DNA from: Candidatus Saccharimonadota bacterium
Lineage (GTDB): Bacteria; Patescibacteriota; Saccharimonadia; Saccharimonadales; Saccharimonadaceae
Assembly (NCBI GenBank): GCA_009787015.1
Contig: WRGU01000048.1
Coordinates: 1 to 41,897 of the forward strand
DNA: 41,897 nucleotides
Reading direction: 5' to 3'
Shown: positions 277-18,963 of the stretch, piece by piece
How positions within the stretch are numbered: position 1 is the stretch's first letter
Layout of the letters: the number at the start of each line of letters is the position of its first letter
Program-made: the position numbers and the translations under genes
The notes under the pieces: model-generated
The model's input: only the letters and a program-made list of their open reading frames with translations
Databases searched by the model: none
What the model was told of the DNA's origin: nothing

Positions 277-759
277 TTACATTTTTTCCGTCGTCATAAG
301 GTCATGCGTGATCGCCGTCGCCAATGCGTCCGCCGCGTCGTCGGGTTTGGGGATAGTTTTGAGGTTGAGGTGGATTTTGACCATTTCCTGAACCTGGTTT
401 TTTTCGGCGCGACCATAACCGGTCAAGGTTTGTTTGATTTGCAGCGGCGTGTATTCGTGAATCGGCAAATCATTTTGCGCAGCAACGAGGATTACCACGC
501 CGCGCGCCTCGGCGACCGAAATCGCGGTGGTGATATTGCGCGCGAAAAACAATTTTTCAATCGCCATCACGTCCGGTTTGGTGGTCGCAATAATTTCCGC
601 GAGTCCATCATAAATTTCTTTCAATCGTTCGGCGATTGGCGTGTGCGGCGGCGTCGAAATCACCCCGCCGTCGATCATTTTGGGCGGCTTGCCGGCAACG
701 AAATCCACCACCCCAAAACCTAAAATTCCCGTACCCGGATCGATGCCGAGAACTCTCAC
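277..759 (-). CDS. ruvC: Holliday junction endodeoxyribonuclease RuvC
   Basis: RuvC cuts Holliday junctions symmetrically during recombination, normally loaded by RuvAB. The 160-residue length is typical. The four acidic catalytic positions are visible: D7 in VLGIDPG, E68 in MAIEKLFF, and the D140/D141...D144 cluster in KPDDAADALA near the C-terminus. It starts with GTG at 759, and this GTG overlaps the TGA stop of the upstream lamin-tail gene (GTGA, 756-759), so translation is probably coupled. ruvA and ruvB are not in the window. The pairing of a core recombination gene with a surface-protein gene is probably just compact gene packing. Confidence 0.95.
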   Translation of the reverse strand: MRVLGIDPGTGILGFGVVDFVAGKPPKMIDGGVISTPPHTPIAERLKEIYDGLAEIIATTKPDVMAIEKLFFARNITTAISVAEARGVVILVAAQNDLPIHEYTPLQIKQTLTGYGRAEKNQVQEMVKIHLNLKTIPKPDDAADALATAITHDLMTTEKM

Positions 760-2603
760 TCGACCTCCGCGGCGAAATCACGGCGACGAGTTTTTCGCGA
801 TAATTTTTGGAAAAATTGTCCGATTTCCATGCGATATTGCAGCGCCACAACCGCCAGTGTCGCCAAAACCACCCCGCCACTCGCCCATTTCCACAAATTA
901 TTTTCGCCCGGCGGATTCATTTTGACCGCATACTGCCCGGGCGCGGTCGATACGATTTTACGACAACGATTGGTTTCCGGATTACGTTCATAACCCTCGG
1001 CGCAGGGCTTCGGTCCGCTCGTGTCGCTCGCAATTTTACGGCAACGATTGGTTAGGGGATTTCGCTCATAGCCTTCCTGGCACGGCGTCAGGGTCGATTC
1101 GCTCTCCAATTTTTTGCACCGATTAGTTTCCGGATTACGATATTGCCCCGGAGCGCACGGCGCGAGCACCGCCGGTTCGACGATTTTATTGCACCGCCCG
1201 GTTTCGAGATTGCGAAAATAACCCGACTGACACGCCGGAAATTCCTGAAAAATATTACCCCCCCCCATTGTGATCACATAGGTCTGCACCCACTCGCCGT
1301 CCACCAACGCCCATGAAGTATCTTTTGATAAATTCGCGTATTCGACCGCATCGACCTCGTTCTTGCCATCGCTCGACAATAAATACACCTTGCCGGCGGT
1401 GGTTTTTGTTAGCGTCAATTCCGTATCCGCGATTTTAATAACCTTTAACGCACCAACCGGCAAAATGTCGTTGTCAAAAGCATAGTATTTCGTCGCCGAT
1501 CGATTTGTCATCAACCGACAATCCGTCAAATCCACATCGTGGTCCGCCGCATTCATAATTTCAATAAACTGCTCGTCCAGATTCGCCCCGATTTCGTTCA
1601 AACGCAGTCCCTCGCACAAATTCGGCGGCACAGGCAACGGATTCGCCGCACCCGGCGTTGGCGTAAAAATTTCCTGCCACTCTTCACCAATCAACGCCCA
1701 CGCCGAACCGGATTTTAACTTGCTGTACGACACGCAATCTTCCTCGACCAAACCATAAATCGACAAAATACAAACCGTACCGCCGGTTGTTTTATTTAAT
1801 TTCAGCGTCGTATCGATAATTTTAACCACACGAAATGCCGCCGCATCCAAAAATTCCGCACCAAAATTCCACATTTTCGACCCGCTCGGGGGATTGCCGC
1901 TCTCGTTATATGTGATAATCAGGCAACCAGCCAGATTTAGCGGTACAGCGGTCGGATTAAAAATCTCAATAAATTTGTCGTTTTCATCAACATTCGCAAC
2001 AATTTCCGTGATTTTCAGCTCCGCACAAGCATTCCCCGTTGGTTCTATCGGCTCTGTCGGCGGTTCAGGATCAGTATCGCCGCCATCACCTGGCTCGGGA
2101 TCAGGATCAGGATCAACCGGCGGTTTGACAACCTGTTCATTCGCCGCACCCGGCGTCGAATTCGCATTTTGCCAAATCCCACCGATCAACGCCCACGATT
2201 TATTTGCACTTTGCTTGTTGTAAATCACTTCGTCAACCACACCATCCGCCGACAAAATACGAATTGTGCCGCCGGTTGTTTTATTTAATTTCAGCGTCGT
2301 ATCCGTAATTTTAACCGCGCGATATTGCCCCGCGTCCAGAATTTCTGCGCCAAAAGCCCACGTTTTTGAACCACTCGGAGGATTTCCGCCCTCGTTCAAT
2401 GTAATAATTTGACACCCAGTTAAATCCATCGGCGCGGCGGTTGAATTGAAAATTTCAATAAATCTATCGACTTCATCAACATTCGCGAGAATTTCCGTCA
2501 ATTTCAAACCCGCACAACCCTCTGCAATCGCTCCCGCCCGCACCGGCAATTGCACCGCAATTAACACTAATGTTATGACAATTACCCAAGCAATTTTCTT
2601 CAT
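756..2603 (-). CDS. Exported lamin-tail-domain (LTD) surface protein with four Cys-rich C-terminal repeats
   Basis: The 615-residue protein has an N-terminal signal peptide, then three copies of a lamin-tail domain (about residues 28-150, 190-310 and 325-440), each with the pattern L.(I/L)NEI.AN.DE..(R/K)FIEI.N....P.(D/N)L.GC and a Ser-Trp-Ala-Leu (SWAL/AWAL) element near its end. A Pro/Asp/Glu-rich linker separates the first two. Four short repeats follow, of the form C..GY.RNPETNRC.KI, which probably form disulfides outside the cell. A single membrane helix (WASGGVVLATLAVVAL) and a basic tail end the protein. It is likely a membrane-anchored surface protein; its ligand is unknown. A G9 tract at 1258-1266 lies in the third LTD domain (codes for MGGGN). 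The promoter places the -10 6 nt before the ATG. Confidence 0.85.
   Translation of the reverse strand: MKKIAWVIVITLVLIAVQLPVRAGAIAEGCAGLKLTEILANVDEVDRFIEIFNSTAAPMDLTGCQIITLNEGGNPPSGSKTWAFGAEILDAGQYRAVKITDTTLKLNKTTGGTIRILSADGVVDEVIYNKQSANKSWALIGGIWQNANSTPGAANEQVVKPPVDPDPDPEPGDGGDTDPEPPTEPIEPTGNACAELKITEIVANVDENDKFIEIFNPTAVPLNLAGCLIITYNESGNPPSGSKMWNFGAEFLDAAAFRVVKIIDTTLKLNKTTGGTVCILSIYGLVEEDCVSYSKLKSGSAWALIGEEWQEIFTPTPGAANPLPVPPNLCEGLRLNEIGANLDEQFIEIMNAADHDVDLTDCRLMTNRSATKYYAFDNDILPVGALKVIKIADTELTLTKTTAGKVYLLSSDGKNEVDAVEYANLSKDTSWALVDGEWVQTYVITMGGGNIFQEFPACQSGYFRNLETGRCNKIVEPAVLAPCAPGQYRNPETNRCKKLESESTLTPCQEGYERNPLTNRCRKIASDTSGPKPCAEGYERNPETNRCRKIVSTAPGQYAVKMNPPGENNLWKWASGGVVLATLAVVALQYRMEIGQFFQKLSRKTRRRDFAAEVE
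1258..1266 (-). repeat. Nine-base G tract inside the lamin-tail gene
   Basis: A run of nine C on the plus strand (nine G in the coding strand) spans Gly codons around residue 450. Gain or loss of one base would shift the frame before the Cys repeats and membrane anchor. Confidence 0.8.
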
Positions 2604-6804: not shown

Positions 6805-7635
6805 ATGAGCAATTTTGAGGTGTCCCCCCCCCGATTCGAACAGCATGTCGCGGCGACTGATATTGATCGCGATAAGGAAATCAAAGTTCAGATCTGGAAC
6901 GACCAAAAAACCGTGCATTACGACAGCAGCAACCGACCCGGTTATTTCGCGGGTCGAACATACGCCGACATGATGGCGCACCTGTTTCCCGATGAGTTTG
7001 ATTTTTCCGGAACAGTTTCGAAAAGCAGCGGGCTGAGCCTGACCGAATTGTGGCGAGAACAAGCAACGCACGAAAACGTCCGTCGACGCAATGTTATGGA
7101 TCAGAATTACGCACCGCCGTATTTCGGCGGTTACAACCGCATGATGGCGGACGGCAATAATATTTTGAGTATTGGTTGCGGACCGGCAACCGGCGAAGCG
7201 CGACTGTCCATCCTACACCCCGAATTATCAGTCATGGGTATCGACATCGCCATTCGCGAACGCAACAAATTCGTCATTGGCGCGAAAGGCTTGCAAATGG
7301 CGTGCGGTGATGCCGGAAACATGCGCAACCTATTGCCCGACAATTCGATCGACGGTATTATCGAATCCCAATCCGCGACAGCCTGGACACTGGACGAAAA
7401 AGAATTGCGCAAACAAGCACGCGAAAAAAGCCGTGTGGCGAAAATTGGCGCAGTTATGCGAATAACCTGTATGCTCGATGACGACATAGTTCGCGCAAAA
7501 CAACAGATGAAACGTTATTATGGTTTTGAATCAACACTCAAAGGCATGGGGTGGGCGACCGAACTTGTCGCGCTTCATGATCCTGGCGAATATAACCTCA
7601 GTTGCGTCATGATCGCCGCCGAAAAACAACGTTAA
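6805..7635 (+). CDS. Class I SAM-dependent methyltransferase, substrate unknown
   Basis: The 276-residue product has a SAM-binding motif I ILSIGCGPATGEAR (about residues 120-133), a motif II acidic end VMGIDIA, a motif III region MACGDAGNMRNLLPDNSIDGIIESQSAT, and a C-terminal strand typical of a Rossmann methyltransferase. The N-terminal 100 residues are unusual and may recognise substrate. A nine-C run at 6824-6832 lies in codons 7-10 (VSPPR), so a one-base slip would abolish the protein. The gene is flanked by two near-identical hairpins and has its own leaderless promoter. No neighbour suggests a substrate. Confidence 0.8.
   Translation: MSNFEVSPPRFEQHVAATDIDRDKEIKVQIWNDQKTVHYDSSNRPGYFAGRTYADMMAHLFPDEFDFSGTVSKSSGLSLTELWREQATHENVRRRNVMDQNYAPPYFGGYNRMMADGNNILSIGCGPATGEARLSILHPELSVMGIDIAIRERNKFVIGAKGLQMACGDAGNMRNLLPDNSIDGIIESQSATAWTLDEKELRKQAREKSRVAKIGAVMRITCMLDDDIVRAKQQMKRYYGFESTLKGMGWATELVALHDPGEYNLSCVMIAAEKQR
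6824..6832 (+). repeat. Nine-base C tract at the start of the methyltransferase gene
   Basis: Nine consecutive C within codons 7-10. As read, the frame is open. Confidence 0.85.
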
Positions 7636-7683: not shown

Positions 7684-8280
7684 TCATTCCTGTTCGGCGT
7701 GTTTTGCGGCGGGTTTTGGTTTACGAAACGGATTTTCAAAATCGCCGGGGGCGGCGGGAGCGTTAGCGACGACTTTTTGCACCACTTTTTCCTGGACGGT
7801 GGGAGATTTAACGGTGATTTTCTGATTATCTATCGCGATAATTTGACTGCGCGCAACGGTCAGGTGCGCGATGGATAAACTTTTCATCATGGTCGGTTTG
7901 AGGTACAGTTGCTGGATCATAAAAGTTTCCGGATCGAGCGTGTAATTGTCCACCCGCCCGAGTTTATGGCGATGTTCATCGATCACCCACAACCCGGACA
8001 GTTCAAAACGAAAATCCATGACCTCGCCGAGCCGCACCATGCCGTCCGGCGACAAAATATTATCCGACGAATCCACAATCGCACCGAGTTCGCCAAATTC
8101 GCGAATATCCTCCGCGAAAACCACCGCGGGTGAAAAATCCACCATCGGTCCGGAAACGTAAAACGCCACAATTTTCAAACTGCGCGGATCAACAATCGCC
8201 GCATCCAATCGCGCCAACGGCTGCCCCGTCTGCAACGACATCACCGGCGCACCCAACATGTTCTGGATTGTTATAAGCAT
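7684..8280 (-). CDS. PRC-barrel domain protein
   Basis: The 198-residue product appears to hold two PRC-barrel-like beta domains: residues about 1-75 (VMSLQTGQPLARLDAAIVDPRSLKIVAFYV) and about 80-150 (LGEVMDFRFEL..LWVIDEHRHKLGRVDNYTLDPETFMIQQLYL). Family members bind RNA or membrane-associated partners; no enzymatic motif is seen. The tail is Ala/Pro/Lys-rich. A start 18 nt upstream (8298) exists but would overlap the TACAAT that sits 6 nt before 8280, so 8280 is preferred. It lies downstream of the PspC gene, possibly with its own start site. Confidence 0.8.
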   Translation of the reverse strand: MLITIQNMLGAPVMSLQTGQPLARLDAAIVDPRSLKIVAFYVSGPMVDFSPAVVFAEDIREFGELGAIVDSSDNILSPDGMVRLGEVMDFRFELSGLWVIDEHRHKLGRVDNYTLDPETFMIQQLYLKPTMMKSLSIAHLTVARSQIIAIDNQKITVKSPTVQEKVVQKVVANAPAAPGDFENPFRKPKPAAKHAEQE

Positions 8281-8286
8281 AAATCC

Positions 8287-8295
8287 ATTGTAACA
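8287..8295 (-). promoter_or_regulatory. Extended -10 for the PRC-barrel gene
   Basis: TGTTACAAT is read on the minus strand with the TACAAT 6 nt before ATG. No convincing -35 is visible, so this is probably a secondary start inside the PadR-PspC operon. Confidence 0.45.
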
Positions 8296-8311
8296 CATTT
8301 AGCGCAAATGG

Positions 8312-9460
8312 CTACTTTTTCGTGTCAATTTTGATCGGACCAATATCGACTTTGACGCGATCACCGTCGGTACGAACATGCACATTTAATTCATCGCGGA
8401 AAATTTGACCGGCGCGCTCAACGCCGGGCTGTCCTGCCCGCGATAACCAAATGCCGCCGCAGGTCGCCGCCGCCATGAGCAGCATAAACATGATCACCAC
8501 ATTCGCCCACAATCCACGACTCCATTTCGCGCGTACCATCGATACGGACAAACTAATGAAACTGAAAAGTAGCATAAACACGAAGCTCAAAACCAATATG
8601 ATACTCGCCACAAACAGCGGTTTCATCACAATACTGACCGAAAAAATCATCACGATCACCCCCGCCATCGCGACCGTGAATGCGATCAAGGTCGGCACAA
8701 AACCGATCAACAGAATTATCCCGAAAAACGCCATGATGCCGTGCACGATCGGATTGACGCGATGAGATTCTCGCTGGGATTGAAAACTTTTTTTGACCCT
8801 CTCGGCTGTTTCTTTGCCAGTTTCAATAACACGTTCACCGGCATTTTTGACCTGTTCTTTGATCGATTCGATATCGACCGACTCGCCGCGCATTTCCAAT
8901 TTTTCGGATGCAGTTTCCGCCGCCGGCGCAACGATCCAAACCACGATATAGACGAGAAGCAACATGCCCACACTCGGGAAAATCACCAAGATCACGAACA
9001 AAACGCGCAACAACGTCACGTCCCAACCGGTATATGCCGCTAACCCCGCGATCACGCCGCCGAGCACCGCATTGTCGGTGTCGCGATAGAACTTTTTGGT
9101 CGACCTGCCGTCGTCTTTGCCGCGCGTGAACAAGTTGTCGCGCCAATCGTTGTCCTTGCTCTTGCTCTTTTTCTTACTGGAACCGGAATTTGAACCGGAA
9201 CTTTCCTCGCCGGAAAAATCAGCGGGCGCGCCTAGTTGTTCTTCGATTGCCGCAACATCGCTCTCGGTGATGACGCTGTCTTTGACCACGCCGCGCGCCG
9301 CCAAAATTTCCGTCATGCGGATTTCGATGTCCTCCATGGCGTCGATTTCGTCGCCCAAACTTTTTCGAACTGCGATTAAATATTTTTCTAACTCTTTTTT
9401 GGCACTCACGTCAATGTCGTACGATACTCGCGCCAGATGGATTTTGGTAATTTCGTTCAT
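8312..9460 (-). CDS. PspC-domain membrane protein
   Basis: The 382-residue product starts with a cytosolic helical domain (MNEITKIHLARVSYDIDVSAKK; about residues 1-80) with a pattern seen in PadR-linked HAAS-like sensors, then a Ser/Lys linker, then a PspC domain (YRDTDNAVLGGVIAGLAAYTGWD, about residues 125-185) with its membrane helix. An amphipathic stretch follows and then about three more membrane helices (residues 235-345). PspC proteins take part in envelope-stress sensing. The start codon overlaps the stop of the padR gene (ATGA, 9457-9460), a classical pair in which the regulator controls its membrane partner. Confidence 0.88.
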   Translation of the reverse strand: MNEITKIHLARVSYDIDVSAKKELEKYLIAVRKSLGDEIDAMEDIEIRMTEILAARGVVKDSVITESDVAAIEEQLGAPADFSGEESSGSNSGSSKKKSKSKDNDWRDNLFTRGKDDGRSTKKFYRDTDNAVLGGVIAGLAAYTGWDVTLLRVLFVILVIFPSVGMLLLVYIVVWIVAPAAETASEKLEMRGESVDIESIKEQVKNAGERVIETGKETAERVKKSFQSQRESHRVNPIVHGIMAFFGIILLIGFVPTLIAFTVAMAGVIVMIFSVSIVMKPLFVASIILVLSFVFMLLFSFISLSVSMVRAKWSRGLWANVVIMFMLLMAAATCGGIWLSRAGQPGVERAGQIFRDELNVHVRTDGDRVKVDIGPIKIDTKK

Positions 9461-9819
9461 TCTTCACTCCCTTCCAGAGTTTTAATTGATGTATTTAGCG
9501 ACCCGATATCTTCTGCTAACCTATTCTTTACCGCCCGGCCATATTCGGTAATTTTGTAATATTTACGCGGCGGACCTTGGTCGGATTCATGCCATTCATA
9601 ATCGAGTAAATCGTCCTTGTGCAACCGCGACAACAGCGGATAAATCGTACCTTCCGCAACATCAACATTGGCGCGCCTCAATTCATTCAAAATTTCCGAC
9701 GTATAAACAGGTTTTTTAACGATCAGCAGAACCATGTAACAGAGCAGTCCTTTACGAAATTGCGTGCTCAAACTTTCGGCATATAATTTTACTTGTTCAT
9801 TGGAAAAACTGTATAACAT
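9457..9819 (-). CDS. PadR-family transcriptional regulator
   Basis: The 120-residue product has a winged helix: QFRKGLLCYMVLLIVKKPVYTSEILNELRRANVDVAEGTIYPLLSRLHKDDLLDYEW, with the PadR signature EGTIYPLLSRL and a wing GPPRKYYKIT, followed by a C-terminal dimerisation helix. It is first in an operon with the PspC and PRC-barrel genes. The start codon overlaps a perfect 10-bp inverted repeat (9811-9834), so autorepression is likely. The signal sensed is unknown. Confidence 0.93.
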   Translation of the reverse strand: MLYSFSNEQVKLYAESLSTQFRKGLLCYMVLLIVKKPVYTSEILNELRRANVDVAEGTIYPLLSRLHKDDLLDYEWHESDQGPPRKYYKITEYGRAVKNRLAEDIGSLNTSIKTLEGSEE

Positions 9820-9854: not shown

Positions 9855-9865
9855 GTATTTTTTGA

Positions 9866-10666
9866 TTATTTTAGCCTTCTCAACAAATAAAATCGCTCTT
9901 GGTTGCCGTTTGCGCCTTTAATTTCACTATCGGCTTTATCCTTAACAATAAAATATTGCCGCGCCCAGATTTCGAAATCGTGCAGGATTTTGCGGCGTTC
10001 AGTATCGTTTTTTATAACGCCGGCATTTTTGACACGATTCCCCGTTTCAAATTGCGGTTTGACCATTGCGATAATTTCCGTATCCCGCCCGCACAAATTT
10101 TGCGCCACATGCGGCAGAATTTCACGCAAGGAAATAAATGATACGTCCGCGAGGATTAAATCCAGGGATTGAATGATAGCGCGCTCCTTCTCGCCGTTTT
10201 GCCCCACTCCATTCCGATCACTAGATTGCCGTGGTTCAAAACGGCTCGCGTCGCTACTCACGACATCGCGAATATCCGTTTTTTCATGCAATTCAATGTC
10301 CGACCGACCGCGCAATTTCGGGTGCAGTTGGTTCGTGCCGACGTCGATGGCGATGACTTTTTGCGCCCCGCGCGACAATGCGAATTCAGTAAATCCACCG
10401 GTCGATGAACCAATGTCCAAAACAATTTTATTTGTGAAATCGATCTTTAATTTCTCGGCGACCGATTTTAATTTTAACGCCGCGCGCGATACGAATTGTT
10501 CGTCCTGATTTAGTTTAATTTCCGAATTTTCCGACACGAAAAAACCGGGTTTCATAATCGCCCGCCCATCGACCGAAACTTCGCCGAGGCGGATGTAATT
10601 TTCCGCTTGCGAACGGCTGGCGACCACGCCGCGCCGCACGAGTTCTTGATCCAAACGAAGTTTCAT
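9866..10666 (-). CDS. tlyA: TlyA-type rRNA 2'-O-methyltransferase
   Basis: The 266-residue product has an N-terminal S4 RNA-binding domain (MKLRLDQELVRRGVVASRSQ...VSVDG) and an FtsJ-like methyltransferase domain with VLDIGSSTGGFTEFAL (SAM motif), VIAIDVG and LILADVSFISL. TlyA homologs methylate 16S/23S rRNA riboses. The start at 10666 is chosen because it overlaps the mnmA stop (ATGA) and has GGAGGT upstream. About 30 residues between DIRDVVSSD and LDLILADVSF have no expected counterpart in the family; this segment has a 9-bp inverted repeat (10193-10245). Confidence 0.92.
   Translation of the reverse strand: MKLRLDQELVRRGVVASRSQAENYIRLGEVSVDGRAIMKPGFFVSENSEIKLNQDEQFVSRAALKLKSVAEKLKIDFTNKIVLDIGSSTGGFTEFALSRGAQKVIAIDVGTNQLHPKLRGRSDIELHEKTDIRDVVSSDASRFEPRQSSDRNGVGQNGEKERAIIQSLDLILADVSFISLREILPHVAQNLCGRDTEIIAMVKPQFETGNRVKNAGVIKNDTERRKILHDFEIWARQYFIVKDKADSEIKGANGNQERFYLLRRLK
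10193..10245. repeat. Inverted repeat inside tlyA, in-frame extra segment
   Basis: GCCGTTTTG (10193-10201) and CAAAACGGC (10237-10245) are perfect inverse complements 35 nt apart. They lie in the region coding for the extra loop (about residues 133-162). Confidence 0.55.
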
Positions 10667-11892
10667 GCAAGCACCTCCGTCGCGGAGGCGAGAATGCCGC
10701 CGCCAACACAAATTTCGCCATCGTAAATCACGATTGATTGACCGGGCGCGATGGCGCGTTCGGGATTTTGTAATTTTAATATAATTCTATCGCCATCGGG
10801 CGAAATTTTCGCATCAATTAATGACGCGCGATGGCGCACGCGAATTTGGTAATTTTTGTCAAAATCCGGCGCGCCGTTGATAAAATGAACGTCGGACAAA
10901 ATAATTTCTTCGCGCCAGAAATCATCGTTGTTGAGATCCGCCGAAACGTAAACCTCATTTTTCACCATGTTTTTATCGACGACATAGTACGGCAGGCCGC
11001 CGCCAACGCCCAAACCGTGCCGCTGTCCGAAAGTATAAAAAATCGCACCATCATGCCGACCTAAGACTTTGCCGGTTTTTTTATCAATGATGTTGCCCGG
11101 TTTAGTTTCGACGAATTGCGACAAAAATTCGCGAATGCCGACGCTGCCGACAAAACAAATGCCTTGGGAATCTTTTTTGCGCGCTGTGATTAAACCGCGT
11201 TTTTCGGCTTCGCGGCGCACGTCTTCTTTTGTTAAAAAATCACCAATCGGAAAGAGAGTTTTTTCCAGCGCGCTTTCCGTAATTCTGTATAAGAAATAGG
11301 TTTGGTCTTTGTCTTTACATTTTGCCATGAGAAGTTTTGTTAAATTTTCAGATTGTTTTTCTGAATCACTGATTATCTGCGCGCGAGAGGCCGATGGAGT
11401 CAACCGAGTGACAGGGTCCCCGCTTGATTCATCAAGCATGGGGATGTTACCCGGCTTGAATCGCTCGGACTGAGCCGGTGATGAAGAAAAATAATCTGAA
11501 AATTTGTTGTGTACTCGCGCGTAATGACCGGTTGCGATCATGTCCGCGCCGGCGGCGACGGCGGCGTTCAAAAACAACCCGAATTTAACTTCCTGATTAC
11601 ACATAATGTCGGGGTTCGGAGTGCGTCCCGCCGAATATTCACGGATCATATAATCGACCACTAAATCTTTATATTCGGTCTGAAAATCGAAAACTTTGAA
11701 CGGAATGCCGAGTTTGACCGCCACGCGTTTCGCATCCGCCAGATCCTCCGCCCACGGGCATTTCATACCGGGCAAATCCTGCGTCCAGTTTTTCATATAG
11801 ACGCCAGTGACATCGAAACCTTGCTCGATGAGCAGTGCCGCGGTGAGCGACGAATCAACGCCGCCCGACATGCCAACGTAAACTTTGGTCAA
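10663..11892 (-). CDS. mnmA: tRNA-uridine 2-thiolase MnmA
   Basis: MnmA activates U34 of Lys, Glu and Gln tRNAs with ATP and transfers persulfide sulfur to make s2U. Visible: the PP-loop GMSGGVDSS near the N-terminus, the catalytic Cys in TPNPDIMCNQEVKFG, the second Cys in SQGICFVG, and the C-terminal beta barrel. At 409 residues it is longer than the usual 350-380; about 50 extra residues (130-183) sit between GHYARV and LLMAKCKDKDQTYFLY, exactly where the gene holds a 164-bp inverted-repeat element. The gene overlaps the desulfurase upstream and tlyA downstream by 4 nt each, so all three are coupled. Confidence 0.96.
   Translation of the reverse strand: MTKVYVGMSGGVDSSLTAALLIEQGFDVTGVYMKNWTQDLPGMKCPWAEDLADAKRVAVKLGIPFKVFDFQTEYKDLVVDYMIREYSAGRTPNPDIMCNQEVKFGLFLNAAVAAGADMIATGHYARVHNKFSDYFSSSPAQSERFKPGNIPMLDESSGDPVTRLTPSASRAQIISDSEKQSENLTKLLMAKCKDKDQTYFLYRITESALEKTLFPIGDFLTKEDVRREAEKRGLITARKKDSQGICFVGSVGIREFLSQFVETKPGNIIDKKTGKVLGRHDGAIFYTFGQRHGLGVGGGLPYYVVDKNMVKNEVYVSADLNNDDFWREEIILSDVHFINGAPDFDKNYQIRVRHRASLIDAKISPDGDRIILKLQNPERAIAPGQSIVIYDGEICVGGGILASATEVLA
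11342..11505. repeat. 164-bp palindromic element inserted in frame in mnmA
   Basis: The 21-nt ends (11342-11362 and 11485-11505) are inverse complements with one mismatch; ATCAC matches continue inward. The centre holds a hairpin with arms GCTTGAT and ATCAAGC flanked by CCCC and GGGG. The element codes for a Ser/Pro-rich loop (SSSPAQSERFKPG...). Confidence 0.8.
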
Positions 11893-15717: not shown

Positions 15718-16767
15718 TTATTTTCGGTATCGGATCAGTTTTCCACGATTCGCCACAGCTCTCACGGCGAGATAACTGTCGGGGTGAGCCGCCATCGGCG
15801 AGGTTATCGACATGCGCCATTCGCGCGGCGATAGTGCTTCGTCATAGTGCTGCGCAGTTTCTGCACCGAGCATTTCGAGCATCGGAATCGAAGGAAGTTC
15901 CTCCTCTGGTATGCCCTTGCTTTTCAAATCTTCCAAAAACTGTTCTGTGTCGACCGTACGACTAGATTCGCGAAGCTTGCGCGATGTTTTATCCATAAGC
16001 AGCACATTTGCACCGTACATCGCCGCATAACCACCTGCGATGATAATGAAAGGTAGAGGAGTTGTTCGCCTAAAAGCGTACGCGGTTATAGGCGCAAAAA
16101 AGAAGTCCGCAACCTCCAACCCGGCTAAAGCCCGTTCGCCGATAGCGTTGCACTCCAAAGTTCTCTGGATAATCGACTGATGCAAATTCTCGTCGAGCGC
16201 CGTCGCCCAGGCTTCGCTGTCAGTCATTTCGCGTTTCGGATTTTCCGTTAACTCGTCGATGCGTTCGTCAATCGCTGTCCGATTTAAGTAATTTATGGCG
16301 ATTGGTTTACCGAAACCATTTCGTATCAACTCATTATCGAGAATTGGCGAAAACAACAAATCGCCGCGCGCCGGTTCGGGCGGTTCGACGCGCTGACTTT
16401 TGATAGAAGTCGCCGCCATAATGCCACCGCTGTCGCGACCGTTAATCGTCTCTTCATAAACCGACCCCCCCCCGCTGTACTCTGACAAAATTTGCCCGCG
16501 GAACATACCGGGGCGGTTGATCGCACGAAAAAGTTTCTGGTTGACCATGATTCGTTCGAGGTCGACCATGGGTTGGTTGGTATTCGGATTGGTCGGAAAT
16601 CGAAAACGTGATATTAGCAGCGGATTTTTGCTCTGTATCTGTTTCAGTTCAATAAATTCTCGCGGCGACATACAAAAACGATCCGGCGTAATATCGCCCA
16701 ACTCGCGCTCTGACACTTCCTGCACCTGCGCCAGAGATGTCCAATTTTTAGAGTTAAAACCGCTCAT
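15718..16767 (-). CDS. Tandem paralog C of an unrecognised family
   Basis: The 349-residue product belongs with the two genes upstream. Shared blocks: an N-terminal SKNW.S...VQ, NPL.IS.FRFPTNPNT..PM.DL.RI, a Gly block YSGGGSVYEE.I.GRDSGGIMAAT, an acidic helix NPKREMTDSEAWATALDEN, and a C-terminal PREWRMSITSPMAAHPDSYLA ending GKLIRYRK. A hydrophobic stretch (about residues 215-255, LPFIIIAGGYAAMYGANVLLM) could be membrane-interacting. No signal peptide and no known catalytic motif are seen. The start 16767 has TACAAT 6 nt upstream. A G9 tract (16465-16473) encodes the Gly block. Function unknown. Confidence 0.75.
   Translation of the reverse strand: MSGFNSKNWTSLAQVQEVSERELGDITPDRFCMSPREFIELKQIQSKNPLLISRFRFPTNPNTNQPMVDLERIMVNQKLFRAINRPGMFRGQILSEYSGGGSVYEETINGRDSGGIMAATSIKSQRVEPPEPARGDLLFSPILDNELIRNGFGKPIAINYLNRTAIDERIDELTENPKREMTDSEAWATALDENLHQSIIQRTLECNAIGERALAGLEVADFFFAPITAYAFRRTTPLPFIIIAGGYAAMYGANVLLMDKTSRKLRESSRTVDTEQFLEDLKSKGIPEEELPSIPMLEMLGAETAQHYDEALSPREWRMSITSPMAAHPDSYLAVRAVANRGKLIRYRK
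16465..16473 (-). repeat. Nine-base G tract in paralog C
   Basis: Nine C on the plus strand, coding for three Gly in the conserved GGGS block. Confidence 0.85.
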
Positions 16768-16773
16768 TTTACC

Positions 16774-16802
16774 ATTGTAGCACACTTTTGTAAAAAAGTC
16801 AA
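16774..16802 (-). promoter_or_regulatory. Leaderless promoter of paralog C
   Basis: TTGACT, a 17-nt spacer ending TGTGC, TACAAT, GGTAAA, ATG on the minus strand: nearly base-for-base the promoter at 3489-3517. Confidence 0.8.
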
Positions 16803-16813
16803 GCGATTTATGC

Positions 16814-17902
16814 TTATTTTCGATATCTAATCAGTTTTCCGCTGTTCACGATCGCGGATAACGCCAAATGAGAGTCGGGGTGGAGCGATAACGGAGCGAA
16901 CGCCGACATGTGCCATTCGCGCGGGGCGGTGATTTCGTGATAGTATTTCAGGGCGCTGTAATGTTCGGCGGTGGAAATTTCCCTCGCCTTTTCGATTATT
17001 TCGGCGGTTTCTTCGTCTATCTCCTCGTCCCCGTACTCGTCCGCTATATTTGTTACAACTCCCGCGAGAACGCCCGCAAAAACGGCTTCTTCGTCGATCC
17101 TGCCCGCCATTTTCATTAACCTTTGTGATTGACGAAATGCGTGAATTAGATCACCCACATACGCCCCGCCGTAAAAAAGTGCTGGCGTAATCACTTTATG
17201 CGCCATAGCGCCATAAACAAACGGCGCTGTTTCCACCACGCTGGTTATCGGGTTTCCGCTCAAATTCAGGTTTACACTGTTGCGCTTGATCGACTGACGC
17301 AGATTTTCGTCCATCGCAATCGCCCAGGCTTCTTCGTCGGTCATTTCTTTTTTTCGTTTCGGATTCTCCTTTAATTCGTCGATGTGTTCGTGGATCGCGG
17401 TGCGGTTCAGTTTATTATTCCCGACCGGACGTGTTATGCCGGCGCGAAGCATGAATTTGGTAATTTCCCCACACATTCCCGACGGTGCGGCGATTAAACC
17501 CGTGCACGGCGGTTCGGGTGGTTCTTTACGTGCGCGTTTTGCGCCGGTCGCCGCCATAATCCCACCAACATTGCGACCACTGATTTCGTCATCATAACTC
17601 GACCCCCCTCCATTGAATTCGGTCACATTCTGACCAACAAAGTGACCGAAAAGGTTCGCTATTGCAACACGCCCCTGACTTACCTGGATCCGATCAAGAT
17701 CGATCATCGGTGCACCAGTATTGGGATTGGTCGGAAAGCGAAAATCAGTGATCGACAGCGGATTTTCCTTATAAAAACGGCGCGTCCCTATAAATTCTGA
17801 CGGGGTCAGGTTGTTCGGATTAAAATCATCGCCAAACGCTTCCTTTGTTTTCTTCTGAATATCCGGTATCGATATCCAATTCTTGGATTCATGTTTGCTC
17901 AT
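16814..17902 (-). CDS. Tandem paralog B of an unrecognised family
   Basis: The 362-residue product shares all blocks of paralogs A and C: MSKHESKNWISIPDIQKKT, FRFPTNPNTGAPMIDLDRI, EFNGGGSSYDDEISGRNVGG, EMTDEEAWAIAMDENLRQS and the C-terminal APREWHMSAFAPLSLHPDS...LIRYRK. It begins only 3 nt after the paralog A stop, with GGAAG just before, so it is in one operon with A. The Gly block codons are GGA GGG GGG, so the G-run is shorter than in A and C. A weakly hydrophobic stretch and an acidic region (YGDEEIDEETAEIIEKA) are in its second half. Function unknown. Confidence 0.75.
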   Translation of the reverse strand: MSKHESKNWISIPDIQKKTKEAFGDDFNPNNLTPSEFIGTRRFYKENPLSITDFRFPTNPNTGAPMIDLDRIQVSQGRVAIANLFGHFVGQNVTEFNGGGSSYDDEISGRNVGGIMAATGAKRARKEPPEPPCTGLIAAPSGMCGEITKFMLRAGITRPVGNNKLNRTAIHEHIDELKENPKRKKEMTDEEAWAIAMDENLRQSIKRNSVNLNLSGNPITSVVETAPFVYGAMAHKVITPALFYGGAYVGDLIHAFRQSQRLMKMAGRIDEEAVFAGVLAGVVTNIADEYGDEEIDEETAEIIEKAREISTAEHYSALKYYHEITAPREWHMSAFAPLSLHPDSHLALSAIVNSGKLIRYRK

Positions 17903-17905
17903 CTT

Positions 17906-18928
17906 TTACTTCCGATACCTTATTAGTGTGCTGGCGTTCATGAGCGCCGCGAGGGCGAGATGTTTGTCAATGTGAATGGCATGCGGGCTAAATAATGATA
18001 TGTTCCATTCGCGCGGGGCGGTGATTTCATCATAATATTGGGCGGCGCTCATGGGAATTTCGGGCGTTTCGTTGTCTGATTCCCCTGTCGCTTCTGTTTC
18101 ATTTGCCGCCGCGGTAGTTTTGGCATCGATTTTTTTCGCCTTGCTTATGAGGAATTTTCGCGTTCCATACGTCACCGCCAGATCAGTTCCCCAATACCAA
18201 GCAAATTCAAGGTATTTTTTGTAGTTTTCAGGAGAGCTAGCGATGCCCTTGTACGCAAAAGATTCAAACATAGTGAGAAGATAGCCTGTACTGACTATAT
18301 TCGATTTACGACTGCGAAGTATCATTGATCGGCGGAAATTTTCGTCGAGCGCCGTCGCCCAGGCTTCGCTGTCAGTCATTTCGCGTTTCGGATTTTCCTT
18401 TAACTCGTCGATGCGTTCGTCAATTGCGTCGCGATTCAACGCATGTTGCGCAATTGACCGGCAAGTTCCATAAACTCCGTGCCTGGTCTTATTATCTGTG
18501 TCTACTTCTGGCGGAAAAATCAACTCGCCGCGCGGCGCTGCGGGCGGTTTTGTGAGTTTGCGCTTGGCGGCGGTCGCCGTTAGAATGCCGCCAACATTAC
18601 GACCACTGATAGTTTCGTCGTAACTCGACCCCCCCCCGTTAAATTCGGTTATATCGTGTCCGACGGTATGTGCGAGAAACTTCGCGACGCGCAATAAATT
18701 CTGGCTCGCCTGGATCCGGTCGAGATCGATCGTCGGCGCGCCGTTGGCATTCGCCGGAAATCGAAAATTGGTGATTGACAGCGGATTTTCCGAATAAAAC
18801 CGCCGCGTCTCGAGATATTGCGACGGATCGAGGTCGTTTAAATCAACCGGTTTATCACCAAAAAATTCCTGTGTTTTTCTCTGAACATCAGATAACGCAA
18901 TCCATTTTTCCGATTTAGACCTGCTCAT
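17906..18928 (-). CDS. Tandem paralog A of an unrecognised family
   Basis: The 340-residue product starts MSRSKSEKWIALSDVQRKT and carries FRFPANANGAPTIDLDRIQ, EFNGGGSSYDETISGRNVGG, NPKREMTDSEAWATALDEN and the C-terminal APREWNISLFSPHAIHIDK...LIRYRK. A low-complexity Ala/Glu/Thr linker (TAAANETEATGESDNETPE) is before the C-terminal block. A segment of about 83 nt (18342-18424) differs from paralog C at a single base, pointing to gene conversion. G9 tract at 18629-18637. First gene of a two-gene operon with its own leaderless promoter. Confidence 0.75.
   Translation of the reverse strand: MSRSKSEKWIALSDVQRKTQEFFGDKPVDLNDLDPSQYLETRRFYSENPLSITNFRFPANANGAPTIDLDRIQASQNLLRVAKFLAHTVGHDITEFNGGGSSYDETISGRNVGGILTATAAKRKLTKPPAAPRGELIFPPEVDTDNKTRHGVYGTCRSIAQHALNRDAIDERIDELKENPKREMTDSEAWATALDENFRRSMILRSRKSNIVSTGYLLTMFESFAYKGIASSPENYKKYLEFAWYWGTDLAVTYGTRKFLISKAKKIDAKTTAAANETEATGESDNETPEIPMSAAQYYDEITAPREWNISLFSPHAIHIDKHLALAALMNASTLIRYRK
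18629..18637 (-). repeat. Nine-base G tract in paralog A
   Basis: Nine C on the plus strand within the conserved GGGS block. Confidence 0.8.
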
Positions 18929-18934
18929 CTCACC

Positions 18935-18963
18935 ATTTTATCACACATTAGCTAAAAAGTCAA
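18935..18963 (-). promoter_or_regulatory. Leaderless promoter of paralogs A-B
   Basis: TTGACT, 17 nt ending TGTGA, TAAAAT, GGTGAG, ATG on the minus strand, similar to the paralog C promoter. Confidence 0.75.

Follow-up and report, generated by a model that had tools for sequence, protein, structure and literature searches.

A tandem triplet of genes from an undescribed protein family with candidate poly-G slippage switches in a Saccharibacterial genome

Background

Three tandem genes between metG and polA in a genome of Saccharibacteria are assigned here to an undescribed, fast-evolving, and patchily distributed accessory family, which occurs chiefly in Saccharimonadales. Two of the three genes, P1 and P3, contain nine Gs in a row, and slippage at this run probably switches their production on and off. 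We are about evenly persuaded of the reading as a whole, in which P1-P3 form an accessory, possibly membrane-associated family, P1 and P3 are phase-variable by poly-G slippage, and P2 is locked on. The source of the DNA is an ultrasmall, parasitic-type bacterium (Saccharibacteria), and the window, that is, the whole stretch of DNA that was analyzed, has a length of 41,897 nucleotides.

Results and discussion

Three tandem copies between metG and polA

The gene order on the minus strand is metG, P3, P2, P1, polA, and the three copies are intact ORFs. P3 (17906..18928, minus strand; 340 amino acid residues) comes first after metG. P2 (16814..17902, minus strand; 362 residues) begins 4 bases past the P3 stop codon and has the longest insert after the hydrophobic center. 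P1 (15718..16767, minus strand; 349 residues from the ATG at 16767) is the last before polA; an alternative longer GTG start at 16785 falls within its promoter.

A full-length three-way alignment gave pairwise identities of 41-50% and contained the blocks FRFPxNxN, GGGS, LNRxAI..IDEL.ENPKR..EMTD.EAWA.A.DEN, and PREW...HxD..LA....LIRYRK in P1-P3, as a first-pass annotation of three tandem paralogs with shared blocks had proposed. A profile of the family recovered the other window copies at E-values of 1e-68 to 1e-81; thus, the resemblance is due to homology and not to chance. Residues that are identical across the copies are encoded by the same codon in only about half to 60% of cases. Therefore, the copies are old, and the protein sequence is what has been kept. 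The codons of P1-P3 are under purifying selection, with amino acids kept and many synonymous sites scrambled.

One part of the alignment has a different history. In alignment columns 169-198, P1 and P3 have the same codon at 24 of 25 identical residues (permutation p ~5e-5), which marks a recent gene-conversion tract with 94% DNA identity (codon permutation test; 16184..16287 in P1 and 18336..18439 in P3, both on the minus strand). Because of this tract, the conservation of the acidic helix appears inflated. The shared blocks described in the first-pass annotation are all present, but the likeness of the acidic helix between P1 and P3 is partly recent gene conversion, and GGGS in P1 and P3 is a G9 run.

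Two other origins for the block were considered and set aside. Its base composition gave no signal of horizontal transfer (GC 0.495, versus 0.49 in metG and 0.47 in polA), and no relative was present among viral contigs.

Protein anatomy

The features kept throughout the family are W..LP close to the N-terminus, an invariant or nearly invariant Asn, an AWA..LN helix, a hairpin, and then R(R)WS..P..Q.DR ahead of a basic terminus; most members have a basic C-terminal tail such as LIRYRK, LIKYKK, or LLKARK. The strongly kept termini and the diverged, partly hydrophobic center that had been noted in the three copies were confirmed and extend to the whole distant family. In most members, the hairpin consists of a pair of weakly hydrophobic segments, each about 18 residues long, with a short loop between them and basic residues on either side; the mean Kyte-Doolittle (KD) hydropathy of the segments, about 1.1, is low for membrane-spanning helices. 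By hydropathy, this helical-hairpin region lies at residues 213-257 in P1 (15997..16131, minus strand), and the corresponding weakly hydrophobic region lies at residues 237-286 in P2 (17045..17194, minus strand). The central region of P3 (residues 211-267; 18128..18298, minus strand) is the least hydrophobic of the three, with KD values of 0.66 and 0.18. The window copies owe their extra length to an extension at the N-terminus and an insert that follows the hairpin. Members of the family have in common an N-terminal part that is soluble, a weakly hydrophobic helical hairpin, and a C-terminus that is basic and conserved, and are possibly membrane-associated. Of the checks suggested earlier for the family, profile searching was productive, since iterated profiles found homologs, and structure prediction was not: AlphaFold predictions with 3 and 6 sequences reached pLDDT values of only 39.8 and 40.1 and gave no usable fold.

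An undescribed and patchily distributed family

With a score over the curated cutoff as the criterion, or a convincing E-value for libraries that have no cutoff, the P1-P3 family had nothing over cutoff in Pfam, NCBIfam, PHROGs, or PADLOC, and a sequence-profile search of the PDB gave no match at E-values up to 10. The weak match to TadB_TadC_N (18.9 bits, versus a cutoff of 27) concerned one family member only. The earlier description of the family as unrecognised therefore holds for all of these collections.

Iterated profile searches found distant relatives across Saccharimonadales, which are single-copy genes of about 250-280 amino acids. Matches in distant genomes began at an E-value of 2e-8, and the alignment with them was consistent after iteration. 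Outside Saccharimonadales but in the same phylum, there were one strong relative (G831, E = 9.5e-29) and one weak relative (G697, E = 1.7e-4). The named records among the relatives are Candidatus Saccharibacteria. Of 393 genomes in the order, 16 carry the family at E-values up to 0.05, and in one taxonomic family the proportion is 12 of 93. This patchiness is not merely a limit of detection, because the nusA-clpC interval in three congeners of the carrier G489 has no room for the gene. One genome (G504) has only a C-terminal match, and in another (G127) the family gene has a frame break. The neighbors are housekeeping genes that vary by genome, namely nusA/clpC, murJ/lepA, rplS/rnhB, frr, and metG/argS or polA (names read by eye from translations, and assigned by profile only in the window).

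Among the genomes searched, G001, the sister species, is the only one of the same genus with an obvious relative, a single gene located directly after metG and before argS. In the phylogenetic tree, the window copies form one clade (support 99/94), and they group with the G001 copy at 100/100, with G001 outside the window clade. Therefore, the triplication occurred after the split from G001, and we consider it to be specific to the window lineage. Paralog number, which the first-pass annotation had singled out for comparison, does vary between species: there are three copies here versus one in each other genome found.

Poly-G tracts in the family genes

The three Gly codons of the GGGS block are GGG GGG GGG in both P1 and P3 and GGA GGG GGG in P2. 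As a result, P1 and P3 each have a G9 tract (16465..16473, where it reads C9 on the plus strand, and 18629..18637, respectively; both genes on the minus strand), a candidate slippage switch, and at the same codons in P2 the run is interrupted (GGAGGGGGG; 17603..17611, minus strand), which makes P2 a candidate locked-on copy. GGG accounts for 12.5% of the Gly codons here; therefore, three consecutive GGG codons would be expected by chance at about 0.2% per site. In distant relatives, this position is not occupied by a Gly triplet.

In G001, the ortholog has ten Gs (G10) at the codons in question, where its reading frame breaks, giving 137 residues followed by the remainder in another frame; this G10 could be an assembly error, as the G001 assembly is fragmented and 70% complete. 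In P1 and P3, the shifted frames stop within 3-46 codons in either direction. Both genes show two features of phase-variable repeat loci, a single-base run of at least 8-9 bases in an ORF, and a frameshift with an early stop if its length changes; a third, an excess of such runs over what composition predicts, is seen in the genome as a whole. Three features that the first-pass annotation had missed provide a different reason for the presence of several copies: the poly-G tract, the broken frame in the sister species, and the gene conversion.

Poly-G runs across the genome

The genome has 41 isolated G9 runs, whereas most relatives have none and base composition predicts almost none. In 336 kb sampled, there were four runs of 7 bases, one of 8, and 16 of 9, and none longer, with expected numbers of 3.4, 0.6, and ~0 under an order-2 Markov model; that all sampled internal runs are 9 bases or shorter may reflect the limits of assembly and not biology. 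Of the 54 contig ends inspected, 8 lie in G/C runs of 8-26 bases (P ~1e-18), and none in A/T runs. The contigs of G000 that break in G/C runs do so at the ends of L138, L141, L147, L153, and L092 and at the starts of L103, L107, and L130. Such breaks would be expected if the length of the runs differs among cells of the population or if assembly fails at them. Assembly of the window lineage is limited by poly-G runs.

Some runs lie in or beside the spacer between -35-like and -10-like hexamers (L105:14220, L105:11647, L112:19490, and L120:36; the first three placements were read by eye). Other genes with G/C runs include enzymes, among them radical SAM, RelA/SpoT-like, and methyltransferase genes. 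On L107, for example, G9 runs occur in a RelA/SpoT-like gene (9860-11314) and in the adjoining radical-SAM gene (8195-9763). The window itself contains two further candidate slippage switches, a G/C 9-mer at 1258-1266 in the gene of a lamin-tail-domain protein (759-2603, minus strand) and another at 6824-6832, just past the ATG of a methyltransferase-like gene (6805-7632, plus strand). G9 counts are also high in G028 (58), G112 (55), and G020 (34), whereas such runs are absent from most genera of the order, so that the trait is lineage-patchy.

Proposed switching and comparison with known systems

In the mechanism that we propose, slipped-strand mispairing at the G9 run would add or remove one G, and this would truncate P1 or P3 shortly after residue 100. 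P1 and P3 would each switch off and on independently, and P2, with its interrupted run, would stay on. More weakly, we suggest that the product resides in the cytoplasm and is anchored to the membrane through its marginally hydrophobic hairpin; the conserved N-terminal part and the basic C-terminal tail would both face the cytoplasm.

Genes that are switched by slippage usually sit at the interface with a host cell, a phage, or a competitor. By this analogy, a role of P1-P3 at such an interface is the most likely one.

A wider proposal, about which we are somewhat doubtful, is that this Patescibacterium runs genome-wide poly-G phase variation, in ORFs as well as promoter spacers; the tandem family would then be one switched output, whose two switchable copies and one locked copy would give combinatorial variants in an epibiont population. 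Should run lengths differ within populations, this would mean that obligate epibionts whose genomes are smaller than 1 Mb diversify by the slippage switch of Campylobacter and Helicobacter. Metagenomic reads would then show the variation directly, the fragmentation of such genomes at G runs would be explained, and the undescribed protein family would become a concrete candidate for a part in contacts with host cells, phages, or competitors.

The pattern found here is that of the slippage-prone phase-variable (contingency) loci with poly-G/C tracts described in Campylobacter and Helicobacter (PMC6321876, PMC4965091, PMC2823697). The likeness to these loci lies in a mononucleotide G/C run that is located within an ORF or in a promoter spacer, a large number of such loci in a small genome, and a frameshift on length change. 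The present case differs from them in that it concerns Patescibacteria and an undescribed protein family, for which variation of the run length within a population is a prediction. Closer in taxonomy, a Gracilibacterium has a hypervariable repeat gene with 9-base in-frame units that vary a protein repeat (PMC6851277). It shares with our case repeat-driven variation in a Patescibacterium, and there the repeat broke the genome assembly. However, its 9-base units keep the frame, whereas the single-base runs found here would break it. A text search of the open literature, which leaves most subscription journals outside, found phase variation together with Saccharibacteria or Patescibacteria in only five papers, and there as single occurrences, the nearest in subject being the same Gracilibacterium study.

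Alternative explanations

The main alternative is that the G9 runs are passive: the lineage would tolerate or generate poly-G everywhere (e.g., because its mismatch repair is weak), and the paralogs would belong to an ordinary accessory family that was duplicated and is not switched. We consider this explanation unlikely, although the occurrence of the 41 runs in genes of many kinds, including the enzymes mentioned above, and the high G9 counts in some other genera of the family speak for it, and the runs may represent a mutational tendency of the genome as a whole and not an adaptation of the P1-P3 family. It fits poorly with the family genes themselves: the site is not Gly-Gly-Gly in distant members, yet the run occupies the same codons in three diverged genes within the genus, and other synonymous sites in these three run-bearing genes are scrambled. 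Moreover, several runs lie in promoter spacers, as in known phase-variable promoters.

Other alternatives concern what the proteins do. P1-P3 might be secreted type IV secretion system (T4SS) effectors that enter a bacterial host, the basic C-terminus serving as an export signal and the hairpin inserting into the host membrane. The basic conserved tails in most members, the patchiness and fast evolution of the family, and a VirB4-like gene in the window genome agree with such a role, and a T4SS and clusters of putative effectors have been reported in Saccharimonadales (PMC12592800, PMC10768705). The putative effectors of TM7x resemble P1-P3 in that they too are Saccharibacterial genes, their function is uncertain, and they may vary with the host (PMC10768705, PMC12592800). 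However, those of TM7x adjoin T4SS genes, whereas the P1-P3 family was not found beside the T4SS genes detected here (the contig ends next to virB4) and has no similarity to their neighbors, and we regard the effector role as quite improbable.

A single-gene anti-phage or abortive-infection protein, with a sensing N-terminal part and the membrane hairpin as the killing part, would likewise be patchy, single, and fast-evolving; duplication with gene conversion is consistent with it, and phase variation would presumably limit its cost. We give this possibility still less credence, as PADLOC gave no match above noise and the neighborhoods consist of housekeeping genes and not of defense islands. 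Finally, P1-P3 might be intracellular proteins that are made constitutively and, as the first-pass annotation suggested, have one shared partner and variable specificity, which would account for the conserved ends and the variable center. A conserved core partner is hard to reconcile with the lack of the family in most related genomes, and this reading seems to us very improbable.

Promoters

P3 and P1 are each preceded by a promoter-like sequence of the leaderless type, on the minus strand, that ends 6 nt before the ATG: TTGACT-17-TAAAAT at 18929..18963 for P3 and TTGACT-17-TACAAT at 16768..16802 for P1. This arrangement, with the ATG six bases past the -10 element, is common to other genes of the window too. 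A near-identical 36-base promoter that reaches the start codon occurs at about 20 sites in the genome (16768-16803 and 3482 in the window, and L077-L096). A dedicated promoter regulon was rejected, because the shared promoter also precedes a folD-like gene and unrelated orphans; it looks like a general strong promoter of the window genome. Many of the 36-base copies precede orphan genes, and some have no ORF immediately after them.
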